Part shown: positions 3,988 to 57,328 of the stretch, piece by piece | Layout of the letters: each line of letters starts with the position of its first letter | Numbering within the stretch: position 1 is the stretch's first letter | From: Gammaproteobacteria bacterium | GTDB taxonomy: Bacteria > Pseudomonadota > Gammaproteobacteria > Poriferisulfidales > Poriferisulfidaceae | Assembly: GCA_026706895.1 (NCBI GenBank) | Contig: JAPOXW010000020.1 | Coordinates: forward strand, 1 to 57,328 | Direction: 5' to 3' | Length of the DNA: 57,328 nucleotides | Notes under the pieces: generated by a model | What the model saw: only the letters and a program-made list of their open reading frames with translations | Told to the model about the DNA's origin: nothing | Databases searched by the model: none | Translations under genes and position numbers: made by a program

Positions 3988-6435
<2,448 letters not shown>

Positions 6436-52209: not shown

Positions 52210-52413
52210 ATGTCGCGAACCAATGTAGATATTGATGATAAGGCGTGCGCGGAGGTCATGCGCCGTTATCATTTAAAAACCAAACGCATGGCAATCAATT
52301 TCGCGCTTCGTGCCCTTGCGGAGGAACCCCTCGGCATTGAGGAAGCCCGGGACCTTCAGGGTTCGGGCTGGGCGGGCAGCCTGGATGAAATCCGGGATAG
52401 TCGCTTGGAGTGA
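52210..52413 (+). CDS. vapB: VapB antitoxin (ribbon-helix-helix)
   Basis: A 67-residue antitoxin: MSRTNVDIDDKACAEVMRRY, then HLKTKRMAINFALRALAEEP, and a WAGSLDEIRDSRL tail, a VapB similar in design to the one at 51129. It is divergent from prlF across 78 bp that contain the imperfect palindrome AAGGAATATCCCTT. The stop overlaps the toxin GTG (GTGA). The toxin is frameshifted, so this may be acting only as a regulator. Confidence 0.88.
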   Translation: MSRTNVDIDDKACAEVMRRYHLKTKRMAINFALRALAEEPLGIEEARDLQGSGWAGSLDEIRDSRLE

Positions 52414-52797
52414 TTCCGACCGACACATCTGCGTGGATTGAATTCTTGCGCGAGACCGCACTCGGAAACCTGTAACCGCGTCAGAACGCTGTTGGCCGGC
52501 GAAGTCGCGATCTGCGATGCGGCTCGAATGGAGGTGTTTGCGGGAGCACGCGACGAACGACATTTGCAGGATCTTCGCCGACTACTCGCGCGTACGGTTG
52601 TCATTCCCACAAGGCCAACGCACTATGATGATGCGGTCGCGCTATTTCGTCTCTGCCGACGAAGGGGAGAAACGGTTCGCAGGCTGATTGACTGTCTTAT
52701 TAGCGCCGTCGCTATTCGTGTGGGTGTGCCTGTCCTGCATCATGATTCCGATTTCGACGCATTAGCGCGCCATACGAACTTGAAAATTGCCCCCTAG
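52410..52797 (+). pseudogene. vapC: VapC PIN toxin broken by a one-base insertion
   Basis: The GTG start overlaps the antitoxin stop and reads VIPTDTSAWIEFLRETA before a stop shortly after. One base later in frame the rest of a PIN toxin continues: SETCNRVRTLLAGEVAICDA, then LIDCLISAVAIRVGVPVLHH, ending at 52797. The total length is a multiple of three plus one. Removing one base near 52461-52463 restores a full ~128-residue VapC with its acidic residues. Real inactivation or a sequencing error. Confidence 0.85.
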
Positions 52798-52805
52798 GAT
52801 GAGGG

Positions 52806-52841
52806 TTGCCGTTCTGGCATAGATCGGTATGATCGCCGATC
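52806..52841 (+). promoter_or_regulatory. Predicted methyltransferase promoter with three GATC sites
   Basis: TTGCCG (52806-52811), 16 bp, TATGAT (52828-52833). The inverted repeat GATCGG/CCGATC (52822-52827/52836-52841) is centred just after the start of the -10. GATC occurs at 52822, 52831 and 52838, the middle one overlapping the -10. A nine-codon upstream frame (ATG 52874) ends over the methyltransferase ATG. Confidence 0.5.
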
Positions 52842-52899: not shown

Positions 52900-53064
52900 A
52901 TGAATGCTGGAAGTGATGCTGTTTCTGAAAACAAGCCAAGGCCGTTTGTGAAGTGGGCAGGCGGCAAGCGCCAATTATTGAAAGAATTGATTCAGCGCAT
53001 GCCAAAAGCGGGTAGATATAAGTGCATGAATTATTTTGAAATTTTCGGGGGGGGGGGGGGGTAA
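52900..53064 (+). pseudogene. N-terminal fragment of Dam-like adenine methyltransferase
   Basis: A 54-residue frame with the Dam/D12-class start (RPFVKWAGGKRQLLKELIQRMP). It reaches the SAM-binding motif as NYFEIFGGGGG and stops at TAA directly after a run of 15 G. The family motif here is EPFVGGG. With one more G (or two fewer) the frame reads on into the downstream fragment at 53067, giving one ~293-residue protein, the normal size. The residues just after the G-run (VIMSGNKNQVVGNPF) do not resemble the expected GALFF-type stretch, so some sequence there may be altered or missing. Confidence 0.8.
53047..53061 (+). repeat. Homopolymer of 15 G inside the methyltransferase gene
   Basis: An uninterrupted run of 15 G at the codons for the glycine-rich SAM-binding loop. 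Long G-runs in coding sequence slip during replication and are the classic switch of phase-variable methyltransferases. They also arise as sequencing or assembly artefacts. Confidence 0.9.
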
Positions 53065-53066
53065 TC

Positions 53067-53777
53067 ATGTCCGGAAACAAAAACCAAGTAGTTGGCAACC
53101 CTTTTATGAGGCGCGGGAAGAAAGAACTGATACAGGCAATTTGGGTCGATCGAGCTGACGTTGAGAACCTTATCAAAAACCTGTCTAGGCATAAAACTGA
53201 CGAAGACTACTTCTACAAAATCAGGGCTTGGGATCGTTCGCCTGGATATTCGCGTCGGACTCGGTTGAATAGAGCAAGCCGGTTCATTTATCTCAACAAG
53301 ACCGCCTATAACGGGCTCTACCGAGTCAATGGCAGTGGACAGTTCAATGCTCCATATGGGAGCTACGTCAACCCGAAGATTCTTGATGCGGACAACTTGC
53401 GGGCCTGTTCTGCTTTTCTGAAGAATGTCCAGATTTCGGTTTCCGATTTTTCGGGGACGCTATCCCGGATATCGGCATTTGATTTCGTGTACATGGATCC
53501 GCCCTATGTGCCAGTTTCGCGCACATCGAGCTTCACGTCATACACACCAAAAGGTTTTGGCGATACGGAACAGAATAGGCTCAGAGATTTCTGCCTGAAT
53601 CTGCACGAACAAGGTGCCCTGTTCATGCTGTCGAACTCTGCTGCGCCGCGAGTGGTGGACCTGTACCAAAAAGAAAAGAATTTTATTATTGAGAAAGTGC
53701 AAGCGCGGCGCTCGGTCAATTGCAAATCCGAGGGTAGAGGTGAAGTCGAAGAAATCATCGTGAGGAATTACCGATGA
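53067..53777 (+). CDS. C-terminal part of Dam-like N6-adenine methyltransferase
   Basis: A 236-residue frame holding most of the target-recognition and catalytic regions: RASRFIYLNKTAYNGLYRVN, GQFNAPYGSY, the catalytic motif DFVYMDPPYVP, TSSFTSYTPKGFG and SVNCKSEGRGEVEE. These are diagnostic of D12-class (Dam, DpnM) adenine methyltransferases. It lacks the SAM-binding N-terminus, which is in the preceding frame across the G-run. Alone it should be inactive. The stop overlaps the endonuclease start (ATGA). Base composition is clearly more AT-rich than the flanking chromosome. Confidence 0.88.
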   Translation: MSGNKNQVVGNPFMRRGKKELIQAIWVDRADVENLIKNLSRHKTDEDYFYKIRAWDRSPGYSRRTRLNRASRFIYLNKTAYNGLYRVNGSGQFNAPYGSYVNPKILDADNLRACSAFLKNVQISVSDFSGTLSRISAFDFVYMDPPYVPVSRTSSFTSYTPKGFGDTEQNRLRDFCLNLHEQGALFMLSNSAAPRVVDLYQKEKNFIIEKVQARRSVNCKSEGRGEVEEIIVRNYR

Positions 53778-55048
53778 GCAAGGGAAAAAAGATTGACCTT
53801 GCTTGGGAAAAGATTCTTGAGGAGGTGACGGCTATTGAGCAAGAAGTGTCAAAAAAAGGGTACTGCGAGATCCAAAGTTCTCAAATTAAGAAGCATGGGA
53901 ACAACTGTGAACCCCGTTTAGCCTGCAAGATTGATTATCGGCAAAACATACCTAAGCCTCTAGAAGAAAGAGGACTTTCTGTTCTAGCCGTAAGGAACGG
54001 ACGGTACAAGATTGCAAGAACAGACCCGTTTATCTCCATTGATGAGACTCAATGCGAGGGATTAGTAAAATGCGGCCCTTTCAGGATCCCAGATCACATA
54101 CAAACTATATCTTCACGCAGCATTAATAGTGAGTCGAAAGCATTGGATGCCGCTTTTGCGTCAAGGATGCTGGAAGCGGTACTTGGAGAAGAAGTCGATC
54201 TTGTCCTGAGAGGGCGTGAATTTTGTCAACCAATCAAATTTTCACTGCCGGACAGGAAGGATGGTAATAAAGTCCGATACCATGTCAAGAAAGTGCAGTT
54301 AGAAGTTGATGGAGGCTATGAGGGAAAGGATGGTATTTATCTCATTGAGGCAAAGATAGGAAGAAGAGACAACATAAATCTAAGGCAGTTGCTCTACCCC
54401 CACCTTCACTATGAGAGTTTATATGGAAAATTGGTGAGGACGTATGTATTATTCTACGAACCCAGCACAAGTCATTTTCATTTTTACCGCTTTAGACATC
54501 AAGACAAATGCCTTTCCGATTATCGCTGCTGTACCCTTGAAACAGATTTCGCGAATTATTGCTGGAATGATTTATGCGCTGCCATAGATGATAACTGTAA
54601 GACTGACAAGAATGCTCCATTTCCTCAAGCTGATAGCCTTGAAAAGGTTTTGGCGGCACTCCTCAAGTTGGACCAGTGCGGGCCTCTTACAAAAGAAGAG
54701 TTATTTGCCGATGAAAACATTACACCACGCCAATATGACTATTATGCAAGTGCTTTGCGCTGGATGAAACTGGCGAAGAGTAGCCGTGGCCCCGACGGTG
54801 TTCAATGTCTGTTGACAGGACTAGGCTCAAGTCTGGCGAAAAAGCCAATGAAAGAAACCCTTTTTGAAATCGCCAAAATAATTTTTTCAAATGATTTTTG
54901 CCGCCTTTTTCTACATGAGGAAGATCCAGATTTTCCAGAGGAGATTTTAAGGAACAATAGATTAAACAGAGAAAAGACTACGTTCGGTAGAAGAATTGAA
55001 ACAATCAAAAGTTGGAAAAGATACTTTCGGAATCACTTTCCCGAATAG
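53774..55048 (+). CDS. Type II restriction endonuclease-like protein (PD-(D/E)xK)
   Basis: A 424-residue protein, AT-rich and coupled by ATGA to the methyltransferase. A PD-(D/E)xK core is visible: Asp179 in LEVDGGYEG, then GIYLIEAKIG with Glu192-Ala-Lys194. An upstream winged-helix-like region (about 1-90) and a C-terminal helical region (about 290-420) may give target recognition. Gene order M then R with overlap is that of type II systems. The nuclease is not a recognisable MboI or Sau3AI relative by eye, so its target is inferred from the Dam-like partner, not shown. It ends 7 bp before the convergent DUF262 gene. Confidence 0.75.
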   Translation: MSKGKKIDLAWEKILEEVTAIEQEVSKKGYCEIQSSQIKKHGNNCEPRLACKIDYRQNIPKPLEERGLSVLAVRNGRYKIARTDPFISIDETQCEGLVKCGPFRIPDHIQTISSRSINSESKALDAAFASRMLEAVLGEEVDLVLRGREFCQPIKFSLPDRKDGNKVRYHVKKVQLEVDGGYEGKDGIYLIEAKIGRRDNINLRQLLYPHLHYESLYGKLVRTYVLFYEPSTSHFHFYRFRHQDKCLSDYRCCTLETDFANYCWNDLCAAIDDNCKTDKNAPFPQADSLEKVLAALLKLDQCGPLTKEELFADENITPRQYDYYASALRWMKLAKSSRGPDGVQCLLTGLGSSLAKKPMKETLFEIAKIIFSNDFCRLFLHEEDPDFPEEILRNNRLNREKTTFGRRIETIKSWKRYFRNHFPE

Positions 55049-55055
55049 GTTGTTT

Positions 55056-57269
55056 TCAAGTTTGTATGTTGTGGGGCTGGTCATCAGACATAAAGGTCAG
55101 TATTGAGCATTCTTCATGTCCAAGAAGTCTCTCGACCTCTCTACATTTCTTTCGGAGCCCAGCGGCTGATTTGTGTTTATTGATCCAAAGCCCACTATTC
55201 CCAATTTTTGTCGGCACAAGTGCTTTATGTGGGCTTGGTGATTTTTGTATTTTGGGTTCGCGTTGTTCTTTATCAGTTAGTGAGAGAAGGGCTTCATGGT
55301 CGTCTTCATAAATGGCAACGAGAAATTTGATCATGGCATCTCTCCAACTGCTAACCGCGATTGTTTTGTCAAAAATCCTGATATGAGTTGGAGCGGAATC
55401 TGACACATTATTTTGAGTTTGGTTTTCTTTGGAGGTGGAGGAGTCAACTGGTTCTGAGCCTAGAGGTTGGTTGGATTCTTCAACATCCCATACTTTGTGG
55501 GCTAGGTTGGTTAAAGTTGCCTGGCGTCGTTTAACATTACTATGGTTCCATTTATCATAATTTTCCAGATTCTTTACAGTTCGAGTTATTGAACTTCCAC
55601 CTACTTCTACTTTTTCGGAGATGGCACGCGTAAGCAGAATTTTGGATTTAGGGTATTCAAGTTTCTTTTTTGAAAAAGGTTTATTCCCCAGAGAACGATT
55701 AATTGGTTTTTCAACAAGAGTGAGATTTCCCAGCATACTACTTACGCCTTCGGGGCATTCTCCAAATTCCTTTACTGCTTCACTGCTTGGTGTTTGCGGA
55801 TGGATGTGTTCAATTTCTAGCTTGGTATATTCGACAAGCCTTTTTTCTTCCTCACTTTCCGCAAATGCTTTTGTATCGATGTGCTGCGACAATTTTCCGA
55901 GTATGTAACGCAGCACATATTTCCTCCTTACTTCATTTTCTCCCATTCGCTCAAAGACCTCAGCAAATCGAACCGATAATTCATTTTTTGCAGGCTCAAT
56001 TTTTGTCGCGAGAAAATTTTTCAACCCTTTCCGGTTTTTGATATCCCGAATCTCGTTAGCCCACTTGGAAAATTTCCCTTCCAAAGCATTAGTTTGTTGA
56101 CGTGTAACAACATGCACGAAAAATAGATTTTCGATTGCTTTGGCTAAATCACGAAAGGTGGTTGGCTCAAGATGCATTCCAGCAAGCAGCAAGATGAAAT
56201 GTTGTCTGGCAGTCTTTCCGGCGAAGAGCGTAATATTTTCTAGATAGGGGACGTTATTCTCCTTTGCATCTAGCGATTTGGTAAAGTTTTGGTATGCGTC
56301 GGCAACTTCAATAAGCTTTCTAGTGAATTCAAGAGGGCGATTTTCGTAATCATTTTTAATATCTCGATGCTCTAAGATTTTCTTGTAGACCTTGTCTTGA
56401 CGCAATTCGTCGATGTCATATCTACTCAATATGAAGTATCGAAGAAAGCGTAAAGGTTTTTCTCTCATATTTTTAATAATCTTTATTAGCTTCTCCCAAT
56501 CGCTTTTTAATTTCGGGAAATCGGTTTCATCAGCTTTCATAAATAACAGGTTTTTCAGCAAATCCATCGCATCTAGCCCGACCCCTCTATCATTAATAGT
56601 CTCGAAAATCATAAGAGCCTTAGCAACATCCTCCGTTTCTATTCGGATCAGCTTTATTTTTTGATTCAAGTAGTCAAAATAGTCATAGAATATTTGTGCA
56701 GAGTTATTAGTGTTAGGCAAACGAGCTAATTCGTCCCAAATTTGGCTATATGCCTTAGTAATATTTTCTGCCGATGTTGCTTGGGCATTTTGACTCGACT
56801 CGTTTTGGTTGCTATTTCTCCAGTCACCGCTCGCGATTTTCTCTAGGATTTCTTGACTATCTCTGTATTGGAGGTCAAGCCGGTAGCGTTCTTGGTCCCT
56901 GCCTTTATTGCTTGGAGACACATCACGGATCATTTTGCCGATAGATAATGATTCTTCATTTTGGCTCTTGAGGTGAGCGCGCAACGCGCAGAGGATTAAA
57001 AACAACGTTGTCATGCGTTGCTGTCCATCGATTAATTCGAAGAGATTACTGTCTTTGCTTGAATTGGAACAGCAAACAACTATACTTCCGATAAAGTACT
57101 CGTCTGGTTCCTCCGAGTCACTACGTGCTTTTTCTATATCCTCAAGGAATTGCAACACATGATCCTGGTTCCATGCGAATTCACGCTGATAGTCAGGTAC
57201 TTTATAAAAATCCTTGAAGAGATCAGCAACACTTATGTCTCGACTTTGAATTGTTTGATCGCCCATCAT
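55056..57269 (-). CDS. DUF262/DUF1524 (GmrSD-type) defence protein
   Basis: A protein of about 737 residues related to GmrSD-type modification-dependent restriction enzymes. The N-terminal DUF262 domain has VPDYQREFAW and the signature IDGQQRMTTL. A DUF1524 His-Me-finger nuclease follows about residues 480-545, with IEHIHPQTPSS and LGNLTLVEKPINRSLGNKPF. After a Ser/Asn/Gln-rich linker, the last ~110 residues (from THIRIFDKTIAVSSWRDAMI) form an extra domain not recognised here. The start is uncertain: ATG 57269 is used, with GTG 57308 possible, and neither has a clear ribosome-binding site. AT-rich, like its neighbours. Confidence 0.85.
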   Translation of the reverse strand: MMGDQTIQSRDISVADLFKDFYKVPDYQREFAWNQDHVLQFLEDIEKARSDSEEPDEYFIGSIVVCCSNSSKDSNLFELIDGQQRMTTLFLILCALRAHLKSQNEESLSIGKMIRDVSPSNKGRDQERYRLDLQYRDSQEILEKIASGDWRNSNQNESSQNAQATSAENITKAYSQIWDELARLPNTNNSAQIFYDYFDYLNQKIKLIRIETEDVAKALMIFETINDRGVGLDAMDLLKNLLFMKADETDFPKLKSDWEKLIKIIKNMREKPLRFLRYFILSRYDIDELRQDKVYKKILEHRDIKNDYENRPLEFTRKLIEVADAYQNFTKSLDAKENNVPYLENITLFAGKTARQHFILLLAGMHLEPTTFRDLAKAIENLFFVHVVTRQQTNALEGKFSKWANEIRDIKNRKGLKNFLATKIEPAKNELSVRFAEVFERMGENEVRRKYVLRYILGKLSQHIDTKAFAESEEEKRLVEYTKLEIEHIHPQTPSSEAVKEFGECPEGVSSMLGNLTLVEKPINRSLGNKPFSKKKLEYPKSKILLTRAISEKVEVGGSSITRTVKNLENYDKWNHSNVKRRQATLTNLAHKVWDVEESNQPLGSEPVDSSTSKENQTQNNVSDSAPTHIRIFDKTIAVSSWRDAMIKFLVAIYEDDHEALLSLTDKEQREPKIQKSPSPHKALVPTKIGNSGLWINKHKSAAGLRKKCREVERLLGHEECSILTFMSDDQPHNIQT

Positions 57270-57328
57270 GTCTAAGTCGTTGCAAGAGGGAAGGGGGTAT
57301 TGGATCACATCTGGATCATCGGAGCAAA

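Follow-up and report, generated by a model that had tools for sequence, protein, structure and literature searches.

Upstream of a predicted DNA adenine methyltransferase gene, three GATC sites are packed into a promoter-like sequence, which raises the question of whether the enzyme, if it methylates GATC, controls its own expression through its own promoter. Coordinates given here are positions in the 57,328-nt contig stretch that was analyzed ("the window"), and L005 and L006 are the corresponding stretches from two other genomes of the same genus. The three sites described in a first-pass annotation were confirmed in the sequence, with starts at 52822, 52831 and 52838, as were the GATCGG/CCGATC inverted repeat and the overlap of the middle site with a TATGAT -10 hexamer (52831 lies inside 52828-52833). 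The elements of this block are as follows.

52806..52811, + strand: -35-like hexamer TTGCCG (TTGCTG in L005, TTGCCA in L006)
52820..52836, + strand: invariant 17-mer TAGATCGGTATGATCGC, longer than any other invariant run in the alignment of the three genomes
52822..52825: GATC 1, with the A predicted to be methylated at about -17/-16
52828..52833, + strand: -10-like hexamer TATGAT, with a 16-bp spacing to the -35 in each of the three genomes
52831..52834: GATC 2, which overlaps the -10, with the A predicted to be methylated at about -8/-7
52838..52841: GATC 3, where transcription is expected to start, with the A predicted to be methylated at about -1/+1
52822..52841: inverted repeat GATCGG-N8-CCGATC (GATCGG 52822-52827, CCGATC 52836-52841, 8-nt spacer), imperfect in L006

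This is the sole case in the window of three GATCs within 16 bp, and the 1.69-Mb genome contains 19 triples whose gaps are at most 5 bp, so GATC density alone proves nothing and was rejected as a measure of significance. The consensus promoter score of the TTGCCG/TATGAT pair is weak, and a promoter scan of the window was at chance level (10 sites found vs 7.7 expected). Given the 19 genomic triples and this chance-level score, the cluster was to be judged by conservation. A structured 5′ leader was rejected, as an RNA fold test of the leader gave no structure signal (z = 0.03).

Conservation was assessed by aligning the window with L005 and L006, the three genomes with a close copy of the methyltransferase gene among the six of the genus set. 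The GATC block is present in the same three genomes, in a single copy each that sits upstream of the methyltransferase gene, and the endonuclease gene follows that gene in all three. The 17-mer TAGATCGGTATGATCGC is identical throughout and is longer than any invariant coding run in the methyltransferase gene alignment, in which 66% of the coding sequence is three-way invariant; at the protein level, L005 and L006 are 73-75% identical to the window for the methyltransferase and about 54% for the endonuclease. Between L005 and the window, identity of the flanking noncoding sequence is about 10-70% per 20-column block, compared to 100% in the 20 columns of the GATC block. All three GATCs are retained in the three genomes, sites 1 and 3 being invariant even though they fall outside both hexamers, and the L005 spacer contains an additional, fourth GATC. 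In L006, a change at base 52837 (CTGATC) breaks the perfect palindrome and keeps the third GATC, indicating that it is the GATC cores and not the perfect GATCGG/CCGATC repeat that are conserved. The promoter claimed in the first-pass annotation found no backing in the chance-level scan and was supported by the hexamer pair, conserved at a fixed 16-bp spacing in the three genomes, and we regard TTGCCG-N16-TATGAT as a probable real promoter.

Nucleotide homology of the cassette to L005 and L006 begins at 52803-52805, that is, at the -35, and the upstream neighbors are unrelated toxin-antitoxin-like genes (VapBC-like in the window and, from a reading of translations, RES/Xre-like in L005 and Fic/Phd-like in L006), indicating that the element travels with the restriction-modification (RM) cassette. 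In the window these neighbors (52210-52797) are a VapB antitoxin gene followed by a VapC-like PIN gene with a seemingly frameshifted 5′ end, in which the frame from GTG 52411 stops and the PIN match begins at profile position 19. A dispersed repeat or transposon end was rejected, since each genome has a single copy and no second close one, and viral spread of the 17-mer was rejected after no match to it was found in viral contigs. No nucleotide relatives were found on plasmids, and the nearest relatives come from metagenome-assembled genomes named Candidatus Porisulfidus sp. TsSOB and Gammaproteobacteria APA_bin_21. Conservation of the cluster upstream of homologs, which the first-pass annotation had proposed as a check, therefore held within the genus (three of three carriers) and failed beyond it: about 18 distant homologs have 0-1 GATC in the 120 bp upstream of the methyltransferase gene. 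The RM family does not need the cluster, and a feature general to the family was rejected; the cluster is clade-specific, and any real methylation sensing would have been added at the level of this clade to an RM family that is itself widespread.

Whether the promoter could sense its own enzyme depends on what that enzyme methylates. The genes of the cassette are arranged as follows.

52900..53064, + strand: 5′ part of a Dam/DpnM-like adenine methyltransferase gene (ATG at 52900; TAA at 53062-53064 in the 15-G frame)
53047..53061, + strand: 15-G run that codes for the glycines of the SAM motif (FGGGGA)
53062..53777, + strand: remainder of the methyltransferase gene in a shifted frame (open ORF 53067-53777), apparently corrupted over its first ~100 bp
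53774..55048, + strand: type II restriction endonuclease gene, DUF6996-DUF6997-DUF7226, with an E..D.GG.E..EAK core and an ATGA overlap with the methyltransferase gene

The methyltransferase gene is intact in L006 and not intact as assembled in the window and L005. The frame-joined protein has the DPPY and Gly-rich SAM motifs of the D12 family, matches PF02086 (E = 1e-47) and TIGR00571 (Dam family, above cut-off), and has DpnM as its best PDB match. EcoDam reads the first base pair of GATC with K9, the third with L122 and P134 and the fourth with R124; Y119 is an intercalating residue (PMC10073500). The frame-joined window protein and the L006 protein have all five residues, and other D12 enzymes of the genus differ at some of the compared positions. 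A genome search found no second Dam-like enzyme.

Tetranucleotide counts on eight plasmids carrying the nuclease/methyltransferase family point to the same target. On four of them, no palindromic tetramer is avoided more strongly than GATC, with 0 observed vs 114 expected in Enterococcus gallinarum, 2 vs 124.5 in E. faecium (both sites inside IS256 copies), 2 vs 57.7 in Macrococcoides and 17 vs 99 in Megamonas; two of the other four show mild avoidance and two none. Because the two Enterococcus plasmids are related, the four avoiders amount to about three independent cases. On E. faecium control plasmids, one from the same strain, the observed/expected ratio of GATC is 0.59-0.69. DUF6996/6997 RM systems are carried by the plasmids L090, L091, L094 and L097, which are almost GATC-free: one has no site in 42 kb, and another has in its 45 kb just the 2 sites in IS256. 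In the window (431 observed vs 446 expected), as in L005 and L006, GATC shows no avoidance, so genomic avoidance was rejected as proof in this organism, the avoidance being that of other hosts' plasmids. The base-reading residues and the plasmid avoidance together strongly suggest that the cassette methyltransferase is GATC-specific, very probably as the first-pass annotation had supposed.

The endonuclease matches the PADLOC REase_II model (E = 2.6e-34), and its E-D-E-EAK residues, a PD-(D/E)XK-like core, are invariant across 11 relatives. The Pfam DpnII family model gave no match to it, a nuclease fold search gave no match below E = 0.001, and a literature search for DUF6997 found no papers; part of the endonuclease model weakly resembles MarR winged helices. 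Methyltransferase and endonuclease genes lie side by side here and in distant relatives, which is the arrangement of a two-gene type II RM system. Neither a small Xre-type C gene nor a second methyltransferase gene was found beside the pair. In three further genomes (L082, L083 and L084), a short nuclease without the C-terminal DUF7226 is flanked by a D12 methyltransferase on one side and a CcrM/DpnA-like one on the other, which resembles the set of genes in DpnII-like systems. In the window, the RM pair is immediately followed by a convergent gene (55056-57308) for a fused GmrSD-type (type IV) nuclease, which was not found at L005 and L006. The locus is best explained as a mobile type II RM cassette of two genes, the first for a GATC adenine methyltransferase and the second for its endonuclease, with the GATC block as the promoter-operator of the cassette.

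Given GATC specificity, the three sites between about -18 and +2 of the conserved -35/-10 pair are the enzyme's own sites in its own promoter, as in CfrBI-class systems. RNA polymerase would use TTGCCG-N16-TATGAT with an inferred start near 52840, which would place one GATC in the spacer, one in the -10 and one at +1, with the adenines of all three within the region covered by the polymerase. Their N6-methylation by the cassette's own enzyme would change promoter strength and thereby produce methylation-dependent feedback on the operon, which would most likely be repressed when methylated and de-repressed when unmethylated or hemimethylated (on entry into a new cell, after replication or upon enzyme loss). 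In CfrBI, AhdI and LlaDII, the methyltransferase gene is controlled by methylation of its promoter (PMC12707154). The CfrBI precedent invoked in the first-pass annotation is as described there; the CfrBI site lies in the -35 and its methylation represses the methyltransferase gene (PMC3978073), and in Pectobacterium one methylated site in the -10 silences the nuclease gene pcaIIR (PMC8989522). From these repressive precedents, repressive feedback is the most likely form. We put the probability that the operon is under methylation-dependent self-control by its own enzyme, with repression the favored direction, at roughly 0.5, judging from sequence and analogy. Of its parts, sensitivity of the promoter to methylation is moderately likely and, if the promoter is sensitive, a repressive effect is likely by analogy. 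Counting against self-control are the lack of the cluster in distant homologs, the weak consensus promoter score, the unavoided GATC in the window, L005 and L006, the methyltransferase genes that are not intact as assembled in the window and L005, the small number of carrier genomes (three) and the fact that a promoter/operator conserved for another reason would look similar.

One such reason would be that the block combines a core promoter with an operator for a protein, whether the methyltransferase, the endonuclease or a host regulator, with methylation secondary or irrelevant. The near-palindromic arrangement of the block and the weak MarR-like resemblance of the endonuclease model would suit this reading. 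In EcoRII, MspI and SsoII, autorepression works through binding. Repression through binding of the own promoter is documented for other methyltransferases (PMC3978073), and host OxyR can read GATC-containing operators (PMC13076061). However, the methyltransferase has no extra N-terminal regulatory domain, no C gene adjoins it, and in L006 the palindrome is broken while all GATCs are kept, and we consider an operator of this kind possible but rather unlikely. It is quite unlikely that the block is an ordinary promoter in which the GATC cluster is incidental and conserved only through recent shared ancestry. The 19 similar triples in the genome, the restriction to three related genomes and the lack of the cluster in distant homologs are what such a history would leave, but the contrast between the divergent L005-window flanks and the fully identical block, the lower three-way identity of the coding sequence and the invariance of GATCs 1 and 3 outside the hexamers argue against it.

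The sign of the effect could also be reversed, with methylation activating the operon or unmethylated sites shutting it down. Since the two genes are co-directional and overlapping (ATGA/GTGA), an OFF frame with continued endonuclease synthesis should be lethal, and under such positive epigenetic coupling a loss of the methyltransferase by slippage of the G-run would also stop endonuclease synthesis, making the OFF state survivable. The agn43 promoter is an activating GATC precedent (PMC13076061). The documented effects of core-promoter methylation are repressive, however, and a cassette whose promoter had to be methylated beforehand would establish itself less easily in a new host, making activation improbable.

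Returning to methylation-dependent self-control, the G-run in the SAM motif would form a separate, stochastic ON/OFF layer. In the three assemblies, the run is 15 G in the window, 13 in L006 (in frame) and 16 in L005, and the downstream frame in the window needs 13 or 16. The SAM-motif glycines have pure GGG codons only in this clade and mixed codons in distant homologs. A phase switch at the G-run is plausible, as is the link between such a switch and promoter methylation sensing. A full two-layer switch, in which slippage sets ON or OFF stochastically, the triple-GATC promoter responds to the methylation that follows from it (hemimethylation after replication among it) and the operon is tuned or shut down to spare OFF cells self-killing, is offered as a tentative and rather unlikely extension.

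Over the ~100 bp that follow the run, 35% of the positions in the window depart from the L005/L006 consensus, compared to 15% elsewhere and to 3% for the other two genomes in this stretch, and 24 of the 32 window-private differences equal a neighboring base (p = 0.0025). A conserved acidic motif after the SAM loop is lost in this segment (53062-53170), which is likely a local corruption by dephased reads or misassembly. The OFF state of the window is consequently not reliable, and the present ON/OFF state is not readable from these assemblies. In L005, about 55-60 bp that encode the beginning of the SAM motif are replaced by the 16-G run (4054-4069), through either a genuine deletion or an artefact of assembly. 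Many other G/C runs of 11-23 nt lie near gene 5′ ends in stretches of G000 and G015 (L069-L080), some at contig ends, in genes for exported-protein-like products (signal-peptide-like starts), glycosyltransferase-like products and two DPPF-type DNA methyltransferases (L070 and L080). These fit candidate contingency loci in a sponge symbiont.

The locus combines traits of several known systems. Like phasevarions, it has a homopolymer tract inside a methyltransferase gene whose length differs between genomes. Known phase-variable methyltransferases are mostly type I, type III or IIG, whereas this is a type II methyltransferase with a separate endonuclease and a tract that encodes SAM-binding glycines. 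As in DpnII/MboI-type systems, a Dam-family D12 methyltransferase with conserved GATC-reading residues adjoins an endonuclease, and the three-gene relatives add a CcrM/DpnA-like methyltransferase; here there are only two genes, the endonuclease is DUF6996/6997/7226, and no second methyltransferase adjoins. The agn43 promoter region has three GATCs. It and the IS10 transposase promoter have GATC in or overlapping the promoter and transcription dependent on adenine methylation (PMC10073500 for IS10; PMC13076061 for agn43), but these promoters read host Dam, whereas the promoter here would read the enzyme it drives. The closest mechanistic parallels are CfrBI, LlaDII and AhdI, in which recognition sites of the cassette's own enzyme lie in the methyltransferase promoter (PMC12707154, PMC3978073). 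Here, the mark would be m6A at GATC, three sites cover spacer, -10 and +1, and the methyltransferase gene contains a G-run; in addition, the CfrBI genes are divergent with one site in the -35, whereas these are co-directional and overlapping.

Control of RM systems through methylation of their own promoter is apparently rarely used, the cited examples being CfrBI, AhdI and LlaDII (PMC12707154). The plasmid GATC avoidance gives a predicted target for the uncharacterized DUF6996/DUF6997 nucleases. Available dam+ and dam- E. coli strains make a GATC-based version of promoter self-methylation testable. Should the G-run switch the enzyme as well, the cassette would offer a natural case for how a type II RM system whose nuclease is a separate protein can withstand the loss of the protective methyltransferase.
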